Shown here: one piece after another, positions 493 to 8,043 of the stretch
Numbering within the stretch: position 1 is the stretch's first letter
Layout of the letters: every line of letters starts with the position of its first letter
Source of the DNA: an uncultured Flavobacteriaceae bacterium
GTDB lineage: Bacteria > Bacteroidota > Bacteroidia > Flavobacteriales > Flavobacteriaceae
NCBI GenBank assembly: GCA_937959395.1
Contig: CALGLR010000017.1
Location: 1 to 41,833, forward strand
Reading direction: 5' to 3'
DNA: 41,833 nucleotides
Notes under the pieces: model-generated
Seen by the model: only the letters and a program-made list of their open reading frames with translations
Told to the model about the DNA's origin: nothing
Databases searched by the model: none
Made by a program: the position numbers and the translations under genes

Positions 493-873
493 TTAAACAT
501 AGCAATCATCGCATTTACCTTGTAATAATACTTGAGAGATATCTACTTTACGATTTGGAATTTTTGGAATAAGAATATTTGTAGGTAAACAATCTACTTT
601 CCCACAATCCGAACATTGAAAATGAGGATGAGCGTCTTGATGTCCAGAAACAGAACATCCATTACATTTGGCATACCATTTATATCCATTTTTCCCAAGA
701 AATGAATGCAAAATCTTATCCTCTTCAAGCTTATCTAAAACACGATAAACGGTAGTTTTATTCATCTTCAAACTAAGACGTTCTATCAAAGTGATTACAG
801 AAATAGCACTTGAATTCTTATCGAATTCATTAAGTAACAATTTAACTGACTTTGTTTTTCTTACAATACCCAT
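493..873 (-). CDS. Fur-family metalloregulator (Zur-like candidate)
   Basis: A 126-residue protein of normal Fur-family size. An N-terminal winged helix contains the recognition helix (NKTTVYRVLDKL, residues 38-49). The C-terminal dimerisation domain carries HPHFQCSDCGKVDC (82-95) and a final CDDC (121-124); the C87xxC90 and C121xxC124 pairs form the usual structural zinc site. An extra CNGC pair (70-73) is present. It is a DNA-binding repressor whose metal cannot be fixed from sequence; Zur-like is favoured over iron Fur because of the neighbours (MerC-like protein, His-rich permease loop). It diverges from the ABC/TonB operon at 1156-7652, and a perfect 7-1-7 palindrome lies 25 bases upstream of its start, so it probably represses itself and that operon. 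Confidence 0.92.
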   Translation of the reverse strand: MGIVRKTKSVKLLLNEFDKNSSAISVITLIERLSLKMNKTTVYRVLDKLEEDKILHSFLGKNGYKWYAKCNGCSVSGHQDAHPHFQCSDCGKVDCLPTNILIPKIPNRKVDISQVLLQGKCDDCYV

Positions 874-877
874 AATA

Positions 878-885
878 CAAATATA
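878..885 (-). promoter_or_regulatory. Bacteroidota -7 element for the Fur-family gene
   Basis: On the minus strand TATATTTG matches the Bacteroidota -7 consensus TAnnTTTG and ends only five bases before the ATG at 873. No well-spaced -33 TTG was found; operator 1 (898-912) occupies that position. If this element is used, transcription would begin at or within a few bases of the start codon, giving a leaderless or nearly leaderless mRNA. Confidence 0.42.
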
Positions 886-897
886 ATATAATTTTAA

Positions 898-912
898 TGC
901 AACTTAGTTGCA
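898..912. promoter_or_regulatory. Fur-family operator 1, perfect 7-1-7 palindrome
   Basis: TGCAACTTAGTTGCA is a perfect inverted repeat of two 7-base arms around one base, the architecture of Fur, Zur and PerR boxes. It overlaps the -33 zone of the rightward promoter and the upstream part of the leftward one, so a bound dimer could block both. The motif is inferred from symmetry and position. Confidence 0.62.
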
Positions 913-938
913 ACAATATAATATTTTAATTACATTTG
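907..938 (+). promoter_or_regulatory. Promoter of the ABC/TonB operon
   Basis: GTTG at 907-910 and TACATTTG at 931-938 match the Bacteroidota -33/-7 pair (TTTG and TAnnTTTG) with a 20-base spacer. Transcription would begin near 943-946. Operator 1 covers the -33 element and operator 2 begins inside the -7 element and runs past the start site, a layout typical of repression. Confidence 0.55.
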
Positions 939-951
939 CAACCAAGTTGCA
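937..951. promoter_or_regulatory. Fur-family operator 2, near-perfect 7-1-7 palindrome
   Basis: TGCAACCAAGTTGCA has the same 7-1-7 design as operator 1 with one arm mismatch. The centres of the two operators (905 and 944) are 39 bp apart, close to four helical turns, so two dimers would lie on nearly the same DNA face. It covers the predicted transcription start of the rightward operon. Confidence 0.57.
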
Positions 952-954
952 TTA

Positions 955-1008
955 ATGGCTGAATATTATGGATTAAATCATTATGCATTTGAATATTGGT
1001 TGAATTGA
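955..1008 (+). CDS. Possible 17-residue leader peptide
   Basis: An ATG about ten bases after the predicted transcription start opens a short frame, MAEYYGLNHYAFEYWLN, ending with TGA at 1006-1008. Eight of the 17 residues are aromatic or histidine. The stop lies exactly at the foot of the hairpin at 1008-1094, as in peptide-coupled attenuators. No family is recognised and so short a frame can arise by chance; it is listed because of its position between promoter and hairpin. Confidence 0.25.
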   Translation: MAEYYGLNHYAFEYWLN

Positions 1009-1094
1009 AAATTGAGCCTTTTAAATCCAATTACGTTTTTAAAGTTTATAGCTGGAGCTATAAAAATAAAAACCGGATTCAAAAGGCCAATTTT
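1008..1094 (+). promoter_or_regulatory. Structured mRNA leader, attenuator-like hairpin with T-run
   Basis: Arms 1008-1028 and 1075-1094 pair over 20 bp with one bulged A (1015) and one mismatch. Inside, 1035-1040 pairs with 1068-1073 and 1045-1053 with 1056-1064 (TTTATAGCT/AGCTATAAA, 2-base loop). The right arm ends in a run of six T, as in an intrinsic terminator. A smaller hairpin (TAGTAAT/ATTACTA) follows at 1111-1129, 26 bases before the ATPase start. The whole lies in the roughly 210-base leader of the operon. Roles as attenuator, riboswitch-like element or mRNA stabiliser are all inference. Confidence 0.48.
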
Positions 1095-1155
1095 TTAGTA
1101 AAAAAAAAACTAGTAATGTGCTATTACTATTCAAAAATTTTAATAAATAATACTA

Positions 1156-1848
1156 ATGTTAGAAGCAAAAAATCTTTGCAAGCGTTTTAATGATAAATTA
1201 GCAATCAAAGATCTAAGTTTTTCAGTTTCCCCAGGAGAAATATTTTGTTTACTTGGACAAAATGGAGCTGGTAAAACGACAACTATAAATATGTTTTTAG
1301 GGTTACTAGAACCAACTTCAGGGGAAGCGTTAATTAATAATGCTTCTGTAATCAATAATAAAATTTCTCGAAGTTCGGTTGCTTATATTCCTGAAACTGT
1401 ACAACTATACAGCAGTTTATCAAGTATTGAAAATCTAGATTTTTTTAGTCGATTAGCGGGTTTTAGTTATAAAAAAGAAGAACTAATTGGTTTTCTAAAA
1501 CAAGTAAACTTGCAAGAAGACGCTTATCAAAAAAAACTATCTACTTATTCTAAGGGAATGAGACAAAAGGTAGGAATAGCAATTGCATTAGCAAAAAATG
1601 CTTCCTTTATTCTTATGGATGAACCTACTTCTGGTTTAGATCCTAAATCATCTGTAGAATTCGCAAAAATATGCAAAGACTTATCGGCAAAAGGTGTGGG
1701 TATTTTTATGGCTACTCATGATATATTTAATGCCGCTAATATTGGTTCTAGAATTGGAATCATGAAAGAAGGCACCATAGTACACTCTACCAATACTACT
1801 AATATAACCGCTCAAGAACTTCAAGATTTATATATAAAAACCATTTAA
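1156..1848 (+). CDS. ABC transporter ATP-binding protein
   Basis: A complete 230-residue ATPase: Walker A GQNGAGKTT (34-42), signature YSKGMRQK (131-138), Walker B FILMDEP (151-157), D-loop SGLDP and switch histidine in ATHD. The order and the KGMRQ signature are those of the group that drives ABC-2 type membrane proteins (CcmA, NosF and DrrA-like). Its natural partners are the two ABC-2 permeases downstream, separated from it only by the receptor gene. MLEAKNLCKRF is the usual beginning of such proteins, so the ATG at 1156 is preferred. It is the first large gene of the Fur-family-controlled operon; its stop lies 14 bases before the receptor start. The substrate is unknown. Confidence 0.93.
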   Translation: MLEAKNLCKRFNDKLAIKDLSFSVSPGEIFCLLGQNGAGKTTTINMFLGLLEPTSGEALINNASVINNKISRSSVAYIPETVQLYSSLSSIENLDFFSRLAGFSYKKEELIGFLKQVNLQEDAYQKKLSTYSKGMRQKVGIAIALAKNASFILMDEPTSGLDPKSSVEFAKICKDLSAKGVGIFMATHDIFNAANIGSRIGIMKEGTIVHSTNTTNITAQELQDLYIKTI

Positions 1849-1862
1849 TTAATAAAAAAGCA

Positions 1863-4364
1863 ATGAATTTTAAAAATAGCGTATTCTCAATTCTTTTATT
1901 GGTAATGCAATTAAGTTTCTCCCAATCAAAAATAACAGGTATAGTTACAGATTCTAACAATTTAGCCATTGAAGGTGCAAATGTTGTCTTAACCAACGAA
2001 TCACAAAAACAAAAAGGAGCAACAACAGATAAAAATGGAAATTTTGGCATTGAAATAGGAGAAAGCAACACCTATAAAATTAGTATCACATTTATAGGGT
2101 ATGAAGCCTTTACTAAAAGTTTAAATATTACAGATACTAAGAACATAAACTTAGGATCAATTACACTCTTAGAATCTATTGAATCACTACAATCTGTAGA
2201 AATTATAGGGAGAAAACGTCAAGATTATAATAGCGACTATTCTTTTTCAGCGACTAAAGTAGCTATTAAGAATAGAGAATTACCTCAAGCAGTAGCAACG
2301 GTAACAAAAGAGCTTATAGCCGATCGGTTAGCGTTTCAATTACCAGATGCTGTTAAAACAGTAAGTAATGTTTCGATTACAGGTTTATATAACCATTATA
2401 ATATTCGTGGGATTACCCAAGCAGATGATGGACAAATACTAAATGGTATGCGTACACGTCAGTATTATTTTTTGCAACCAATTACTTCGCACCTTGAGCG
2501 CGTAGAAGTTATTAAAGGGCCTTCATCAGTAACATTTTCTAGTGCAGATCCTGGCGGAACCGTAAATATGGTAACTAAAAAACCATTAACTGAAAAGCGT
2601 AATGAAGTTTCAGTCTCGGCAGGTAGTTTTGGAACATTAAGAACTACTGCTGATTTTACAGGTCCTTTAAATAAATCTAAAACATTGTTATATCGTTTCA
2701 ATGCAGCAGTTCAAGAAGGGGGATCATTTAGAGATGTCGTAGATAACAATGCTATTTTGGTGACCCCATCATTAAGTTATATTCCTAACGACAAAACATC
2801 ACTTAATGTGGAAATGATTTACAATAATGCTGAAGGTAATGTAGATAGAGGACAACCAATTTTCGATGCTGTTGATGATAATTATGATCCATTTAGTACA
2901 CCAATTACTTTGAACCCAGGCGCAATTAACGACTTTTATAAAACTAAAGAACTCATATTTATGACAAGCTTTAGTAAAAAATTTACTAAAAACTTTGGTT
3001 TCAATGCTCAATACATGAAACAAACTTGGGATGAAGATTTACAAGAGCATAGAGCAGATGCATTTCGTCAAGCTTATGATATTAATGGCAATGTTGTTCC
3101 AAATCTTATAGCCATGCGATATGCAGAAAGACAACAAAATTGGAATACTGATAATTTTAGCACTTATTTTAATTACGACATTAAAAAAAATAATATTACA
3201 AATAAAATATTAGTAGGATTTGATGCATCAAGTTGGGAAAGAAAAACGGGTGGCGCAAATAGCGCAAGAAATTATTTGTTAAATGATGGTTCTGCTGCAA
3301 GATTTAGACCCGGAACAAGTGATCCAAATGATTTTCAGCAAACAGCTGATGGATTATTAGTTCCTGTTATACCTCATTTAGATTTAACTAATCCTTTTAA
3401 CGGAATTAGAAACACTAATAATTATGTGATTTCACAATTTGAAATTCCTGCAAATTTAACAACTTCAAGTGGTATCTATTTTCAAAACCAATTTAAGATT
3501 GGAAAATTTTCAGCTTTAGTAAACTTAAGGTATGAGTGGTTCACAGATATTTTTGATTATGACGGGGCAAATGAAGAAGAATTTAAAACCAATGCTTTTG
3601 TACCCAGAATAGGTTTAACTTATGAAGTGACTAATGATATTAGTGCTTATGCTACTTATTTAGAAGGTTTTCAGCCTCATACAAATACTGTATCATTATC
3701 ACCAACTGCGGAAGGTTTCTTCTGGGCCGCTTCACCAAGCAGATTTGATCCTTTAGAAAGTAGCCTATTAGAAATAGGTGCAAAAGGGGAGTTTTTAAAT
3801 GGTAAAATATTTGCAAACCTTGCTTTGTTTGATATCTCTCAAAAGAACATTTTACTTGGAGATATCTTTGACCCAGATAACTTAACAACAAGAGGAGAAC
3901 AACGTAGTAGAGGTTTTGAAATGGATATTTCTGGTTACTTATCACCAAACTTTCAACTTACAGCGTCTTATGGCTATAATGATGCTAAAATTGAAGAAGA
4001 TTTTATAGAAGATTTTATTGGAGAACGAATTGGAGGAGCTCCAGAACATAATGCAAATTTTTGGGGACGTTATGATTTTATGAATAAAACCTTAAAAGGT
4101 ATTGGAATTGGTTTTGGTATGCAATATGTAGACGAAAGATTTACTTGGTATAACCCTTCTTATTCTACTGATAGAGTACTATTACCAGAATATACCGTAT
4201 TTGATGCTGCAGTATATTACAAGCCAAATAACACAAATATGCAACTAACACTTAAATTTAACAATTTGTTTAATGATACGTATTGGTTAGGCGGCCTTAA
4301 TCCTTCTAGATTAGGTCCAGGAGCACCTAGAAATATTTTATTAAACGCGACATATAAATTTTAA
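1863..4364 (+). CDS. TonB-dependent outer-membrane receptor, siderophore type
   Basis: An 833-residue receptor. A signal peptide (about 1-20, ending LSFSQ) is followed by a CarboxypepD_reg-like domain (ITGIVTDSNNLAIEGANVVL onward), then a plug of the siderophore-receptor group with RGITQADDGQILNGMRTRQY, VEVIKGPSSVTFSSADPGG and VNMVTKKP. The remainder is a 22-strand barrel with a C-terminal aromatic residue (ATYKF). It should import a metal chelate or other large ligand using TonB energy. The ligand cannot be read from sequence; Fur-family control and the neighbouring genes favour a metal complex. It lies between an ABC ATPase and its likely permeases, an unusual order implying a joint function. 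Its stop lies three bases before the next start. Confidence 0.93.
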   Translation: MNFKNSVFSILLLVMQLSFSQSKITGIVTDSNNLAIEGANVVLTNESQKQKGATTDKNGNFGIEIGESNTYKISITFIGYEAFTKSLNITDTKNINLGSITLLESIESLQSVEIIGRKRQDYNSDYSFSATKVAIKNRELPQAVATVTKELIADRLAFQLPDAVKTVSNVSITGLYNHYNIRGITQADDGQILNGMRTRQYYFLQPITSHLERVEVIKGPSSVTFSSADPGGTVNMVTKKPLTEKRNEVSVSAGSFGTLRTTADFTGPLNKSKTLLYRFNAAVQEGGSFRDVVDNNAILVTPSLSYIPNDKTSLNVEMIYNNAEGNVDRGQPIFDAVDDNYDPFSTPITLNPGAINDFYKTKELIFMTSFSKKFTKNFGFNAQYMKQTWDEDLQEHRADAFRQAYDINGNVVPNLIAMRYAERQQNWNTDNFSTYFNYDIKKNNITNKILVGFDASSWERKTGGANSARNYLLNDGSAARFRPGTSDPNDFQQTADGLLVPVIPHLDLTNPFNGIRNTNNYVISQFEIPANLTTSSGIYFQNQFKIGKFSALVNLRYEWFTDIFDYDGANEEEFKTNAFVPRIGLTYEVTNDISAYATYLEGFQPHTNTVSLSPTAEGFFWAASPSRFDPLESSLLEIGAKGEFLNGKIFANLALFDISQKNILLGDIFDPDNLTTRGEQRSRGFEMDISGYLSPNFQLTASYGYNDAKIEEDFIEDFIGERIGGAPEHNANFWGRYDFMNKTLKGIGIGFGMQYVDERFTWYNPSYSTDRVLLPEYTVFDAAVYYKPNNTNMQLTLKFNNLFNDTYWLGGLNPSRLGPGAPRNILLNATYKF

Positions 4365-4367
4365 TAT

Positions 4368-5813
4368 ATGAAAAAGCAAGTTGTTGTTTTAATAGCAAAG
4401 CAATTTTTCAAAAAGACCTTTAATAACAAAGGTCTTTTTGTGCTTTTATTCATCTATTTAACAATTTTGGGCTATGTAAGTATAAATAGTTGGAATGCTT
4501 TTGAAAAACACAATCATGTCGTTGAGCATCACCAAGAAAAATCTAGACAAAGTTGGGAAGACAACCCAGATAAACACCCACACAGAATGGCGCATTTTGG
4601 GTCATTCGCTTTTCGTTTGCAACACCCTTTAAGTATTTTTGATTCCGGAATAGAAAGTTATACAGGAAATTCTATTTTTTTAGAAGCACACAAGCAGCAT
4701 ACTGCTAATTTTTCTGAGGCAAGTTTGTCTACAGGTTTGGTTCGTTTTGGTGATTTAAATATCGCCATGTTGCTACAGTTAATTTTACCATTGATTATAT
4801 TTTTCTTAGGTTATTCATCTATTACTTCCGAAAAAGAAAACGGAACGCTTAAAATAATGCATATACAAGGTTCTAAAATAAAAGAAATACTTTTAGGTAA
4901 GTCATTAGGCCTATTTTTTGTATCCACATTATTCTTTATACCTGGATTAATAGCTTTGTGGAGTATTTCTTTTTTAGAACACTTTACCGCTAATAGCTCA
5001 ATAGTCATTAGAGCGACATTAATAACCATAAGTTACTTATTATTTTATATCATATTATGCTGTATTACTGTAATACTATCTGGTTTAAGTAAAAACTCTA
5101 ATAAAGCATTACTAAGCTTATTAGGTATTTGGTTATTATTTTTTATAATTATTCCAAAAACAGCTCAGGTTATAGGAAATTACACATATCCTAATCTTTC
5201 AAAAATAGAATTTAAAGCTGCTATAGAAGAAGAAGTTTCAAAAAAAGGAGATAGTCATAACCCTAACGACCCCTATTTTAATAGTCTACGAGATTCAATT
5301 TTAAAAGCTAATAAAATCACCGATGTCAAAGATTTACCTTTTAATTATAGCGGTTTCTTGATGAGTAAAGGCGAAAAGCAATCAGCTATTATTTATAGTA
5401 ATCAGCATCAAAAACTAATTAAAACGTATCGAAAACAGAATAGAATTACCAACCGTCTAGTATTAATAAACCCATACTTGGCCATCAAAAATTTATCAAT
5501 GAGTTTATCTGGAACCGATTTCGATACTTATGTGAGTTTTTTATCACAGACTGAAAATTACAGATACCAACAATCTCAATACATGAACGATTTACAAATG
5601 AAATATATAAGTAACAAGGCAAAAAGTAGTGAAGGTAAAGTTCATGTCGTTGGTAAAGAAAATTGGAAAGCATTACCAGCTTTCAACTATCAATATATTC
5701 CCATAAATAAAACCATAATAAAACAACTACTTGCTATTGTTTCTCTTTTTGTTTGGTTACTATTAACACTAGTTTTTATGAGCAAATTCTCTAACCGTTT
5801 TAAAATTATTTAG
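4368..5813 (+). CDS. ABC-2 type permease, DUF3526-like, His-rich loop
   Basis: A 481-residue membrane protein with one helix near 24-44, a long extracytoplasmic loop, five helices between about 140 and 270, a second large soluble part, and a last helix near 455-474. The layout and the EKENGTLKIMHIQG segment resemble ABC-2 permeases of the DUF3526 group, which work with a NosF-like ATPase. The first loop (about 50-110) is rich in histidine (HNHVVEHH, KHPHRMAHF), which suggests contact with a metal. The next permease follows after two bases. Codons 15-25 of this gene contain a perfect terminator-like hairpin (4409-4440). Direction of transport and substrate are unknown. Confidence 0.8.
   Translation: MKKQVVVLIAKQFFKKTFNNKGLFVLLFIYLTILGYVSINSWNAFEKHNHVVEHHQEKSRQSWEDNPDKHPHRMAHFGSFAFRLQHPLSIFDSGIESYTGNSIFLEAHKQHTANFSEASLSTGLVRFGDLNIAMLLQLILPLIIFFLGYSSITSEKENGTLKIMHIQGSKIKEILLGKSLGLFFVSTLFFIPGLIALWSISFLEHFTANSSIVIRATLITISYLLFYIILCCITVILSGLSKNSNKALLSLLGIWLLFFIIIPKTAQVIGNYTYPNLSKIEFKAAIEEEVSKKGDSHNPNDPYFNSLRDSILKANKITDVKDLPFNYSGFLMSKGEKQSAIIYSNQHQKLIKTYRKQNRITNRLVLINPYLAIKNLSMSLSGTDFDTYVSFLSQTENYRYQQSQYMNDLQMKYISNKAKSSEGKVHVVGKENWKALPAFNYQYIPINKTIIKQLLAIVSLFVWLLLTLVFMSKFSNRFKII
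4409..4440 (+). terminator. Terminator-like hairpin inside the first permease gene
   Basis: CAAAAAGACCTTT (4409-4421) and AAAGGTCTTTTTG (4428-4440) form a perfect 13-bp stem with a 6-base loop; the descending arm ends in five T. It begins 45 bases after the receptor stop codon but within the coding region of the permease. It may cut transcription after the receptor, lowering permease output, unless translating ribosomes prevent folding. Termination has not been shown. Confidence 0.5.
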
Positions 5814-5815
5814 CA

Positions 5816-7162
5816 GTGTATAGCATATTAATTAAACATTTTTTTAGAACAAAAACGGTAACATTAGCTTTTGTCTTGCTTATGGTTTTAGGCCTTTTAA
5901 GTATTGGCACTGGAAAACAATTTCTTACTCAAAAACAAACCGCTATTACAAAAACAATAGAACAACAACAAAAGCATATAGAAACGCAAACAAATCTCCA
6001 TAAGGATGATTTAGGGTTGTTATTATACTATTTAAAATTTTCTTTTATTAATAATATTACTCCTTTAGCTGGTATTTCTATTGGGCAAAGCGATTTGAAT
6101 TTACATATTCAAAATGTAACTATTCTAAATCTTGAAGGGCAGAAATATGATACCGATTTAATAAACCCTATGCGTTTGCATGTGGGAAATTTAGATGTTA
6201 GCTTTCTTATTATTTTTCTTTTTCCTTTAGTTATTATTTCATTAACCTTTAATATTCTATCTGAGGAAGAAGAAAAAGGAACTTGGAAAATGGTAACCAT
6301 TCAAGGGCAATCTTCTTTTAAGTTTTTAGTGATGAAACTATCTATAAGGATCTTATTTATTTTTGGAGTTTTAGCGCTATTATTCTTATTAACCAAATTC
6401 GCTTTAGGCATCCCTTTTAACTTTGATTTTATTTACATGATATCTATTAGCTATTTATACATGCTATTTTGGTTTGCATTATGCTTTTTTGTTATTCTAT
6501 TAAGAAAATCATCTAATATTAATGCCATTGTATTATTAACTAGTTGGTTAATATTGGTTGTTTTCTTACCTGTTTTGGTAAATAATTATGTTACTCATAA
6601 ATACCCTATAGGTGAGGCTTTTTCTATGACCATAAAACAAAGAGACGAATATCACAAAAAATGGGATACAGATAAAAAAGAAACTTTAGATAAATTCTAT
6701 AAACATTACCCTCAGTTTACTAAATACGGAATAAAAGAGGAAGGTTTTTCTTGGTTGTGGTATTATGCAATGCAGCAAATGGGAGATGATGAATCAAAAC
6801 TAGAACGAGAAGCGATGTATGAAAAAATTGAAAAAAGAGAAGCATTAAGCAAAGCTATTTCTCAATTTCTACCTCCATTACAAATACAATTATCGATGAA
6901 TGAGATTGCTAATACAAGCTTAAAACATCACATAGATTTTTTAAATGCAACTACTAAATTTCATGAATCTATTCGTTTACAATTTTATCCTAAGATTTTT
7001 GATAATGAATCTGCAGATAATGTAAACTGGAAAAACTATAATCCTGAGTTTTTTATAGCTCAAAATGAATTTCGTTTTTTTAAAAACACGAGTTATATAA
7101 CTCTCATTATTTTATTTCTAATAGGCTTTGCCATTTTAAAAAACAAAAAACATTTCACTTGA
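5816..7162 (+). CDS. Second ABC-2 type permease, DUF3526-like
   Basis: A 448-residue membrane protein, the sister of the preceding gene: N-terminal helix, extracytoplasmic domain, cytoplasmic EEEEKGTWKMVTIQGQ segment, a cluster of helices (about 120-270), a soluble region and a final helix. The two probably form a heterodimer powered by the ATPase at 1156-1848. It starts at GTG 5816, two bases after the stop of the previous gene, so translation is probably coupled; no nearby ATG gives a better start. It lacks the histidine-rich loop of its partner. Confidence 0.77.
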   Translation: MYSILIKHFFRTKTVTLAFVLLMVLGLLSIGTGKQFLTQKQTAITKTIEQQQKHIETQTNLHKDDLGLLLYYLKFSFINNITPLAGISIGQSDLNLHIQNVTILNLEGQKYDTDLINPMRLHVGNLDVSFLIIFLFPLVIISLTFNILSEEEEKGTWKMVTIQGQSSFKFLVMKLSIRILFIFGVLALLFLLTKFALGIPFNFDFIYMISISYLYMLFWFALCFFVILLRKSSNINAIVLLTSWLILVVFLPVLVNNYVTHKYPIGEAFSMTIKQRDEYHKKWDTDKKETLDKFYKHYPQFTKYGIKEEGFSWLWYYAMQQMGDDESKLEREAMYEKIEKREALSKAISQFLPPLQIQLSMNEIANTSLKHHIDFLNATTKFHESIRLQFYPKIFDNESADNVNWKNYNPEFFIAQNEFRFFKNTSYITLIILFLIGFAILKNKKHFT

Positions 7163-7247
7163 TAATTAAATCTCTCTATTACTTTTCAAAAAGTAATAAT
7201 TTAACCTTTTCTATTATATCTATAAAAAATTACGATAAACTATTTAA

Positions 7248-7652
7248 ATGATACTCATAAAACAAAAACCAGATAGTATTGGTGCTTTTGCTAGTGCATT
7301 ATGTCTCATACATTGTATTGCTACTCCCTTTCTTTTTATAGCCCAAACGTGTACTTTAACTCGCTGTCAAGAAACACCTTTATGGTGGCAATATATTGAT
7401 TACTTTTTTTTAGTTATTTCGTTTTTTGCTATTTATAAAACAACACAAAACACTTCAAAAAATTTCATAAAACCCTTGCTATGGATAAGTTGGTTTATAC
7501 TAGCAATAATAATAGTTAATGAAAAAAACGAGTGGTTACATTTAAACCATCATTTAATTTATGTGCCAGCATTAACATTAATAGTCTTGCATTTATACAA
7601 TCGTAAATACTGCCAGTGTAATAAAAATAAATGCTGTGCAAATGAAGAATAA
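7248..7652 (+). CDS. MerC-like small membrane protein
   Basis: A 134-residue protein with about four membrane helices. The first carries the MerC signature ASALCLIHCIATP (CxxHC, C19-C23), and the C-terminus is cysteine-rich (CQCNKNKCC). MerC proteins move Hg(II) and possibly other soft or thiophilic metals across the inner membrane; in Bacteroidota such genes commonly occur outside mer operons, so mercury resistance is not implied. It follows the second permease by 85 bases on the same strand and is likely the last gene of the Fur-family-controlled unit. Promoters of its own were not recognised. Confidence 0.82.
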   Translation: MILIKQKPDSIGAFASALCLIHCIATPFLFIAQTCTLTRCQETPLWWQYIDYFFLVISFFAIYKTTQNTSKNFIKPLLWISWFILAIIIVNEKNEWLHLNHHLIYVPALTLIVLHLYNRKYCQCNKNKCCANEE

Positions 7653-8043
7653 ATTTAAATTGTATCACAATGAAAATTTAACACCAAAACACGTTCACAA
7701 ATTCATTGAAAGCTTTTAAAATCCGTTAAAAAGAACCTAAAGTAACAATATGAATCCATTTTTAATATGGCCTTTTTCTGATCGAATCAGAAACCTTTGA
7801 CTTTATTAGCATTAAACAATGCTTGCGCAATAATTAAAAAGTAATTAAGTTTGTTATAGAACTCGTTTAAACTTTTTCAATTTGCTAAAAAATTGCCTTT
7901 TTGTATATGATTTTAGTCTTTTTTTCATTCCGTAGCGATGCTATGCAATTCATAAAAGCCGTCAACCAAATCCAAAATGACTAATTTTCGCTTAAATCCA
8001 AAAAAAATAAACAAGTTCATAGACCTTTTCTAAACTTTAATAT
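7653..8043. other. Intergenic region with repeat copy A
   Basis: No gene is credible here. An 8-bp hairpin TTTCTGAT/ATCAGAAA (7775-7793, loop CGA) lies near the middle without a T-run, and the rest is dominated by the 160-bp repeat element at 7859-8018. No clear terminator for the preceding operon was seen. Confidence 0.55.
7859..8018 (-). repeat. 160-bp inverted-repeat element, copy A
   Basis: Read on the minus strand this matches copy B (16524-16683) along its whole length, sharing the segments GCGAAAATTAG, GAATTGCATAGC / GAGTTGCATAGC, GCTACGGAA, GGCAATTTTTTAGC and AATTGAAAAAGTTTAAA. Both copies are 160 bp. Its ends (GAACTCGTTTAAACTTTTT and the complement of the right end, GAACTTGTTTATTTTTT) are imperfect terminal inverted repeats. 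It carries no gene. It is best described as a MITE-like or structured-RNA element. Confidence 0.65.

Follow-up and report, generated by a model that had tools for sequence, protein, structure and literature searches.

The Fur-family gene and the operon facing it on contig CALGLR010000017.1 of an uncultured Flavobacteriaceae bacterium probably represent a zinc-starvation operon and its Zur-like repressor. The window, that is, the whole stretch of DNA that was analysed, is 41,833 nucleotides long and belongs to a 4.3-Mb genome that is 99.75% complete. The operon encodes an ABC ATPase, a TonB-dependent receptor, two DUF3526 permeases, and a MerC-family protein (Table 1). The first-pass annotation had proposed metal-responsive control by the Fur-family protein, and this is supported by the Zur-repressed homologues in Caulobacter and by the genes that accompany the regulator in other genera. 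It had named zinc or copper as the possible metal; the same homology to znuK and znuGHI and the same gene company speak for zinc, and no support was found for copper. I infer that zinc is most likely the metal sensed and transported in this organism. The pump is of the known Caulobacter type, which Zur represses there, and what looks like the locus's own is the zinc switch, namely the regulator clade and its operator.

The regulator, the operon, and the doubled operator

All six ORFs were found where the first-pass annotation had placed them, and its gene order, its divergent Fur-family gene, and its two operators were confirmed by the ORFs, Pfam, and the exact palindromes. The gaps are 14 bases between the ATPase and receptor genes, 3 between the receptor and permease 1 genes, 2 between the permease genes, and 85 before merC. 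Thus, a claimed spacing of 3 to 14 bases holds for the first two gaps and fails for the permease gap, and the 85 bases before merC were correct. The ORF of permease 2 starts with GTG. Both permeases carry DUF3526 (107 and 95.4 bits; Pfam cut-off, 25), the MerC match lies well over the cut-off of PF03203 (27.6 bits), and the MerC protein has the CxxHC motif (C19-x-x-H22-C23), so the earlier family assignments also stand. The receptor has TonB barrel, Plug, and CarboxypepD_reg domains in Pfam. The five genes facing the regulator would form a single transcript under its control, and the AT-rich hairpin behind the permease 2 gene could split merC off from the upstream genes.

Table 1. Features of the locus, with positions in the window
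Feature	Coordinates	Strand	Basis
Fur-family regulator, Zur-like, 126 aa	493..873	-	Pfam FUR match; close copies; kept metal-type residues
Operator 1, TGCAACTTAGTTGCA	898..912		Exact palindrome
Promoter-like TTG-N20-TAnnTTTG	908..938	+	Pattern match, overlapped by both operators
Operator 2, TGCAACCAAGTTGCA	937..951		Palindrome; start 39 bp from the start of operator 1
ABC ATPase, ZnuG-like, 230 aa	1156..1848	+	Pfam ABC_tran; Caulobacter ZnuG match, 1.8e-49
TonB-dependent receptor, ZnuK-like, 833 aa	1863..4364	+	Pfam, NCBI models, Caulobacter match
DUF3526 ABC-2 permease 1, ZnuH-like, 481 aa	4368..5813	+	Pfam; ZnuH match, 2.2e-81
DUF3526 ABC-2 permease 2, ZnuI-like, 448 aa	5816..7162	+	Pfam; ZnuI match, 4e-49
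AT-rich hairpin between permease 2 and merC	7177..7198	+	Sequence
MerC-family membrane protein, Cys-rich tail, 134 aa	7248..7652	+	Pfam MerC, 80.8 bits

Both operators sit in the gap between the divergent regulator and ATPase genes. In the 4.3-Mb genome, the exact pattern TGCAAC-N3-GTTGCA occurs only as these two palindromes. With one mismatch allowed, it was found at 5 places, against 3 for a control pattern with reversed letters. The three extra places were dropped; two are inside an ORF, one is 24 bases past the stop of an ORF, and the ORFs are unrelated. In the source genome, the operator marks this one locus only. The pattern TTG-N20-TAnnTTTG, which I take to be a promoter consensus, has 10 matches across the whole window when both strands are counted, and none was found in the regulator's own direction. 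When zinc is replete, the Fur-family protein would sit on both operators and cover the promoter-like sequence. When zinc is scarce, the repressor would leave the operators and the cell would make the operon proteins.

The regulator matches the Pfam FUR family (PF01475) at 35.4 bits (cut-off, 23.1). Residues H56, C70, H78, and C95 are kept in 23, 21, 23, and 23 of 24 close copies, respectively, and are its candidate zinc ligands; two CxxC motifs of the structural kind (C87, C90, C121, and C124) are kept in all 24. A Cys-x7-His is placed as in E. coli Zur, in a YxxC-x7-H context whose Cys and His residues are presumably zinc ligands in the regulatory site. The genome's other Fur-family protein lacks the regulatory-site Cys and scores higher as a Fur protein (92.8 bits vs 34.5 bits). 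The operon regulator is named only Zur-like because it reaches 17.8 bits with the NCBI Zur equivalog NF008646, far under the cut-off of 167, and by this model it is not of the E. coli type. Its best NCBI model is iron Fur, at 33.9 bits and again far under the cut-off (220). This model, together with the receptor, which is above the cut-off of the siderophore-receptor subfamily TIGR01783 (270.8 vs 223.5 bits, a score that says nothing about the cargo), would suit uptake of an iron siderophore under a divergent Fur. Such a reading is highly improbable, since the genome has a separate, higher-scoring Fur and the gene company of the regulator clade is of the zinc type.

Homology to the Caulobacter zinc genes and the role of the ABC proteins

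According to the available text of PMC4176598, a Caulobacter zur mutant upregulates znuK (receptor), znuG (ATPase), and znuH and znuI (ABC-2 permeases). The znuK and znuGHI promoters respond to zinc and Zur and are repressed by zinc via Zur, and ZnuK is needed under zinc starvation; that text describes no znuGHI deletion (PMC4176598). The C. vibrioides locus was retrieved by the printed Zur site, which matched 17 stretches. The Caulobacter stretch among them (L150) encodes an ATPase and two permeases that match those of the operon one to one and in matching order, with the E-values given in Table 1. Permease 1 is 30% identical to ZnuH over 473 positions and permease 2 is 23% identical to ZnuI over 446 positions, and both Caulobacter permeases carry DUF3526. 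In a one-way search, the receptor's top match in the Caulobacter genome is at the znuK locus (6.5e-18), and the next receptor follows at 2.6e-13. The other 16 stretches gave ATPase matches (L158, L161, and L165), weak receptor matches (L154, L162, and L163), and no permease match. Among 14 named control genomes, DUF3526 was found in Caulobacter only; ZnuA was matched in 11 of them, and Caulobacter is not among these.

Thus, the operon shares with Caulobacter crescentus znuK/znuGHI (CC1517-CC1520) a homologous ATPase, receptor, and pair of DUF3526 permeases in matching order, as well as a Fur-family palindrome at a divergent promoter region. In contrast to Caulobacter, where znuK and znuG point apart and share one Zur site, the receptor gene lies here between the ATPase and permease genes, with the regulator adjoining and merC behind. 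The operator also differs in sequence and is doubled at 39 bp.

I infer that the ZnuK-like receptor would carry zinc or a zinc complex across the outer membrane into the periplasm. The ZnuGHI-type ABC-2 complex, with one ATPase and two unlike permeases, most likely takes the periplasmic zinc and either moves it into the cell or passes it to another protein or site. The MerC-like protein, a membrane protein with Cys and His residues, is probably a zinc carrier or chaperone at the inner membrane. There is no binding-protein gene in the operon. In permease 1, H72, H76, H108, and H297 are each conserved in 90% or more of 47 relatives, and a spread set of 13 sequences has them throughout; these four histidines are a candidate metal site, which would face the periplasm. 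No His is kept at the 90% level in permease 2 (44 sequences). In MerC, D9, C19, H22, C23, P27, and H115 are kept in 9 sequences. The protein resembles MerC of mercury operons in its family match and CxxHC motif, and differs from it in standing alongside a Fur-family regulator. A predicted structure of permease 1, made with no partner sequence other than ZnuH, was unusable (mean pLDDT, 38.9).

The nearest solved relative of permease 1 is NosY (7o0y; 3e-9, profile positions 131-257, 127 of 473 positions), and the PmtD exporters match weakly (0.15). The permeases exceed the 276 aa of the NosY chain by about 170 to 200 residues. Being NosY-like, they are not of the usual importer kind, which counts against the zinc-uptake reading. 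An ABC complex of this kind may import zinc, handle it in the periplasm, or recycle a chelator. Given its resemblance to NosY, it may act by pulling on a site in the periplasm no less than by transporting zinc.

NosDFY, as I understand it, delivers copper to nitrous oxide reductase. Maturation of copper or other periplasmic metalloenzymes, with a NosFY-like motor serving a copper protein and MerC moving a thiophilic metal, was weighed and is improbable. In its favour, the membrane part of permease 1 resembles that of NosY; many genomes have DUF3526 units with a small CxxC...RPPP protein upstream in place of the operator, and elsewhere the palindrome accompanies distant Fur-family proteins and efflux genes of the CusB-like and P-type kinds (both described below). 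Against it, the permeases carry DUF3526 and have the extra length, no NosD- or NosZ-like protein was found among the Pfam-scanned operon proteins, the regulator's neighbours are of the zinc type, and the Caulobacter homologues answer to zinc. The operon also differs from NosDFY in its two unlike permeases, its TonB receptor, and the lack of an adjoining NosD gene.

The metallophore cycle of the first-pass annotation, placed under zinc control, would have the receptor take up zinc or cobalt in chelated form and the ABC-2 complex send out the chelator, whether freed from its metal or made by the cell. It is unlikely and nevertheless stays a serious rival because of a precedent in P. aeruginosa. 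There, a Zur-regulated receptor/importer and an ABC exporter were proposed to move pyochelin-cobalt, as given in the available part of PMC11481552. In PA2911-PA2914 and PA4063-PA4066, Zur controls a TonB receptor together with ABC parts, among them one of exporter type; their families are those of a siderophore importer and MacB, not DUF3526 (PMC11481552, available part). The NosY and PmtD matches of permease 1 and the siderophore-receptor score would fit such a cycle. On the other side, no chelator-making gene was seen among the ORFs adjoining the operon, the genome has no match to the nicotianamine synthase-like PF03059, and the exporter of the precedent is of another family.

Zinc uptake remains the preferred reading, against which several results count. 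Most DUF3526 units have no operator nearby, some genomes with a close regulator have an operator-less unit, the regulator is far under the Zur-model cut-off, and the FolE neighbours are not FolE2. The permeases are NosY-like, the operon encodes no binding protein, and the source genome has the operator at one locus only, with cobW as its only strong COG0523 match. The zinc reading can be extended, tentatively and with more doubt than confidence, into a joint picture. Bacteroidota and Caulobacter would share a zinc uptake route driven by an export-fold, NosFY-type ABC engine that needs no binding protein. Zinc delivered by a TonB receptor would be accepted at a histidine site of two unlike DUF3526 permeases, MerC-family proteins would serve as zinc carriers in Bacteroidota, and a separate Zur clade would read a double operator 39 bp apart.

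Other zinc and metal genes of the genome were also inspected. It has one ZIP-family protein and one ZnuA-type protein. The latter adjoins a DtxR-family repressor, and no operator lies near its gene in the stretch read; thus, it may serve manganese. The genome's only strong COG0523 match was rejected as a member of the zinc regulon, because inspection by eye assigned it to cobW, within a locus for cobalamin.

The regulator clade and its gene company

The regulator is a member of a separate Fur-family clade. In the family sample, 22 of 149 genomes have 24 close copies (48-100% identity), and the next match drops to 36%. The operator pattern was derived from the window alone and then sought in the other genomes, within 350 bases upstream of each regulator copy or 60 bases inside its ORF. 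TGCAAC-N3-GTTGCA with at most 2 mismatches was found at 24/24 copies, which share ancestry and are not independent events, and in 119 of 4800 first-order Markov resamplings. A doubled operator at 37-39 bp is present at 18 of the 24 copies; two or more sites occurred in 1 of 4800 resamplings. The regulator ORFs of L038, L050, L057, L133, and L134 start upstream of the likely start, and the operator distances were measured from there. L148 covers the G072 locus a second time and was left out of the counts.

Of the 24 copies, one of which is the window's own, 21 have MerC within 7 kb, 10 have FolE, 8 COG0523, 7 the permeases, 6 the ATPase, and 5 the receptor. One copy (L132) has none of these nearby. 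Single examples of neighbours were checked with Pfam: FolE (PF01227), COG0523 (PF02492 and CobW_C), MoCF_biosynth, MerC, PRA-CH (HisI-like), PhoX, and a MacB/FtsX permease. The gene company resembles that of a Zur regulon, judging from such matches. The available text of PMC2770081 connects Zur regulons with COG0523, with alternative paralogues of FolE and HisI, and with DUF1826, and it also names the zinc-independent FolE2. The FolE neighbours here are GTP cyclohydrolase I paralogues of the PF01227 type, not FolE2.

The operator also occurs without the regulator. It lies before MerC-FolE genes in L121 and before COG0523 genes in L139 and L140, and the source genome of L140 (G096) has no close regulator copy. 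Outside the family, exact double operators 39 bp apart were found in L206, with the order DUF1826-ATPase-permeases-DUF5916-171 aa-COG0523, and in L211, with the order COG0523-ATPase-permeases. L209, also outside the family, has a single operator before COG0523, two oxidoreductase-like genes, and ABC genes. Comparison across genomes thus suggests a regulon of zinc-starvation genes, represented by one locus in the source genome.

As far as the available parts of PMC6103462 and PMC2770081 go, the Zur regulons of Proteobacteria and Firmicutes share with this one the Fur-family control of TonB receptors, ABC systems, and COG0523, as well as folE and hisI paralogues and DUF1826. In contrast, the regulator clade and the operator differ here, and MerC, the commonest partner in this study (21/24), is no Zur target in those parts of the two papers. 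No Zur regulon of Bacteroidota was found among the literature matches listed, in a search that most subscription papers lie outside, and the search found no paper on DUF3526. The available text of PMC11960050, a 2025 paper, states that zinc homeostasis of Riemerella anatipestifer had been unstudied. Zinc control in Flavobacteriales thus looks little described. The clade, its operator, and its targets form a testable Zur-like regulon that ties MerC proteins, as well as DUF3526 permeases, to zinc. Gene deletion then becomes a way to ask what ABC proteins of export type do in metal uptake.

Several single loci deserve mention. In L055, one 646-aa ORF (5864-7804) fuses a COG0523 GTPase (cobW, CobW_C) to a ZnuG-like ATPase and adjoins the regulator, MerC, and FolE; it ties the zinc-chaperone family to the transporter. 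A gene for a PhoX-type alkaline phosphatase (L121:5582-7261) follows operator-MerC-FolE. Near another regulator copy (L122:11379-13700) are an ATPase, a MacB/FtsX permease with a His-rich stretch, and a 145-aa protein, in a layout that I take to resemble P. aeruginosa PA4063-PA4066. At L146:5367-12523 and L147:7350-13811, the palindrome lies near distant Fur-family proteins and CusB-like, RND, or P-type efflux genes. This speaks for metals, not for zinc alone, and the operator may also be recognised by a second Fur-family clade that controls metal efflux.

DUF3526 units with and without the operator

DUF3526 was found in 26 of the 149 family-sample genomes and in 47 of 296 phylum-sample genomes. 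From the family, 26 loci from 25 of the 26 genomes were read in addition to the window; from the phylum sample, 19 loci were read, five of them from the same family again. This gave 47 units in total (family sample, 28; phylum sample, 19). The neighbourhood survey that the first-pass annotation had proposed gave a mixed result. In the family, 12/28 units have the order ATPase-receptor-permease-permease, 15/28 have the permease pair without this receptor, and 1/28 is a fragment. The regulator, MerC, and all four core genes come together in 5/28 (the window, L038, L050, L052, and L053), and L038, L050, and L052 are of the same genus and gene order as the window.

An operator with at most 1 mismatch lies within 2.5 kb of 15/47 units (first-order Markov resampled DNA, 14/1880). 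Two operators spaced 36-40 bp, with no more than 4 mismatches between them, lie at 9/47 (resampled DNA, 0/1880). The other 32 have no operator within these limits, three of them with under 710 scannable bases. Among units with this receptor, 10/21 have an operator and 11/21 have none. Thus, in the operator-less units, the same transporter may have other control or other cargo. Six genomes with a close regulator and an intact unit have the operator before the unit (G000, G138, G044, G051, G072, and G079), and in G014 it lies about 3.2 kb upstream of the DUF3526 unit in the same cluster. In G001, G019, G057, G086, and G090, which have a close regulator, the operator is found elsewhere only and the unit has none. 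When 18 upstream regions were searched for further palindromes of the 7-1-7 type, none recurred among the receptor loci that lack the operator.

At least 11 operator-less or other units have a protein of about 100 aa with CxxC...RPPP upstream. Such a protein, with CxxC and an RPPP end, precedes the ATPase where the regulator is absent in L036 (4023-4334), L037, L039, L041, L042, L043, L046, L048, L049, L051, and L058. The one example scanned matches no Pfam family. Permease 2 reads as two ORFs in L039 (9264-10604) and L203 (8237-9573), which may reflect decay, a split gene, or a sequencing error. In several receptor-less units, among them L045 (6381-8582), L048 (10416-12626), and L206 (6199-8433), a DUF5916/CBM9-like protein is encoded behind the permeases and is perhaps another outer-membrane partner.
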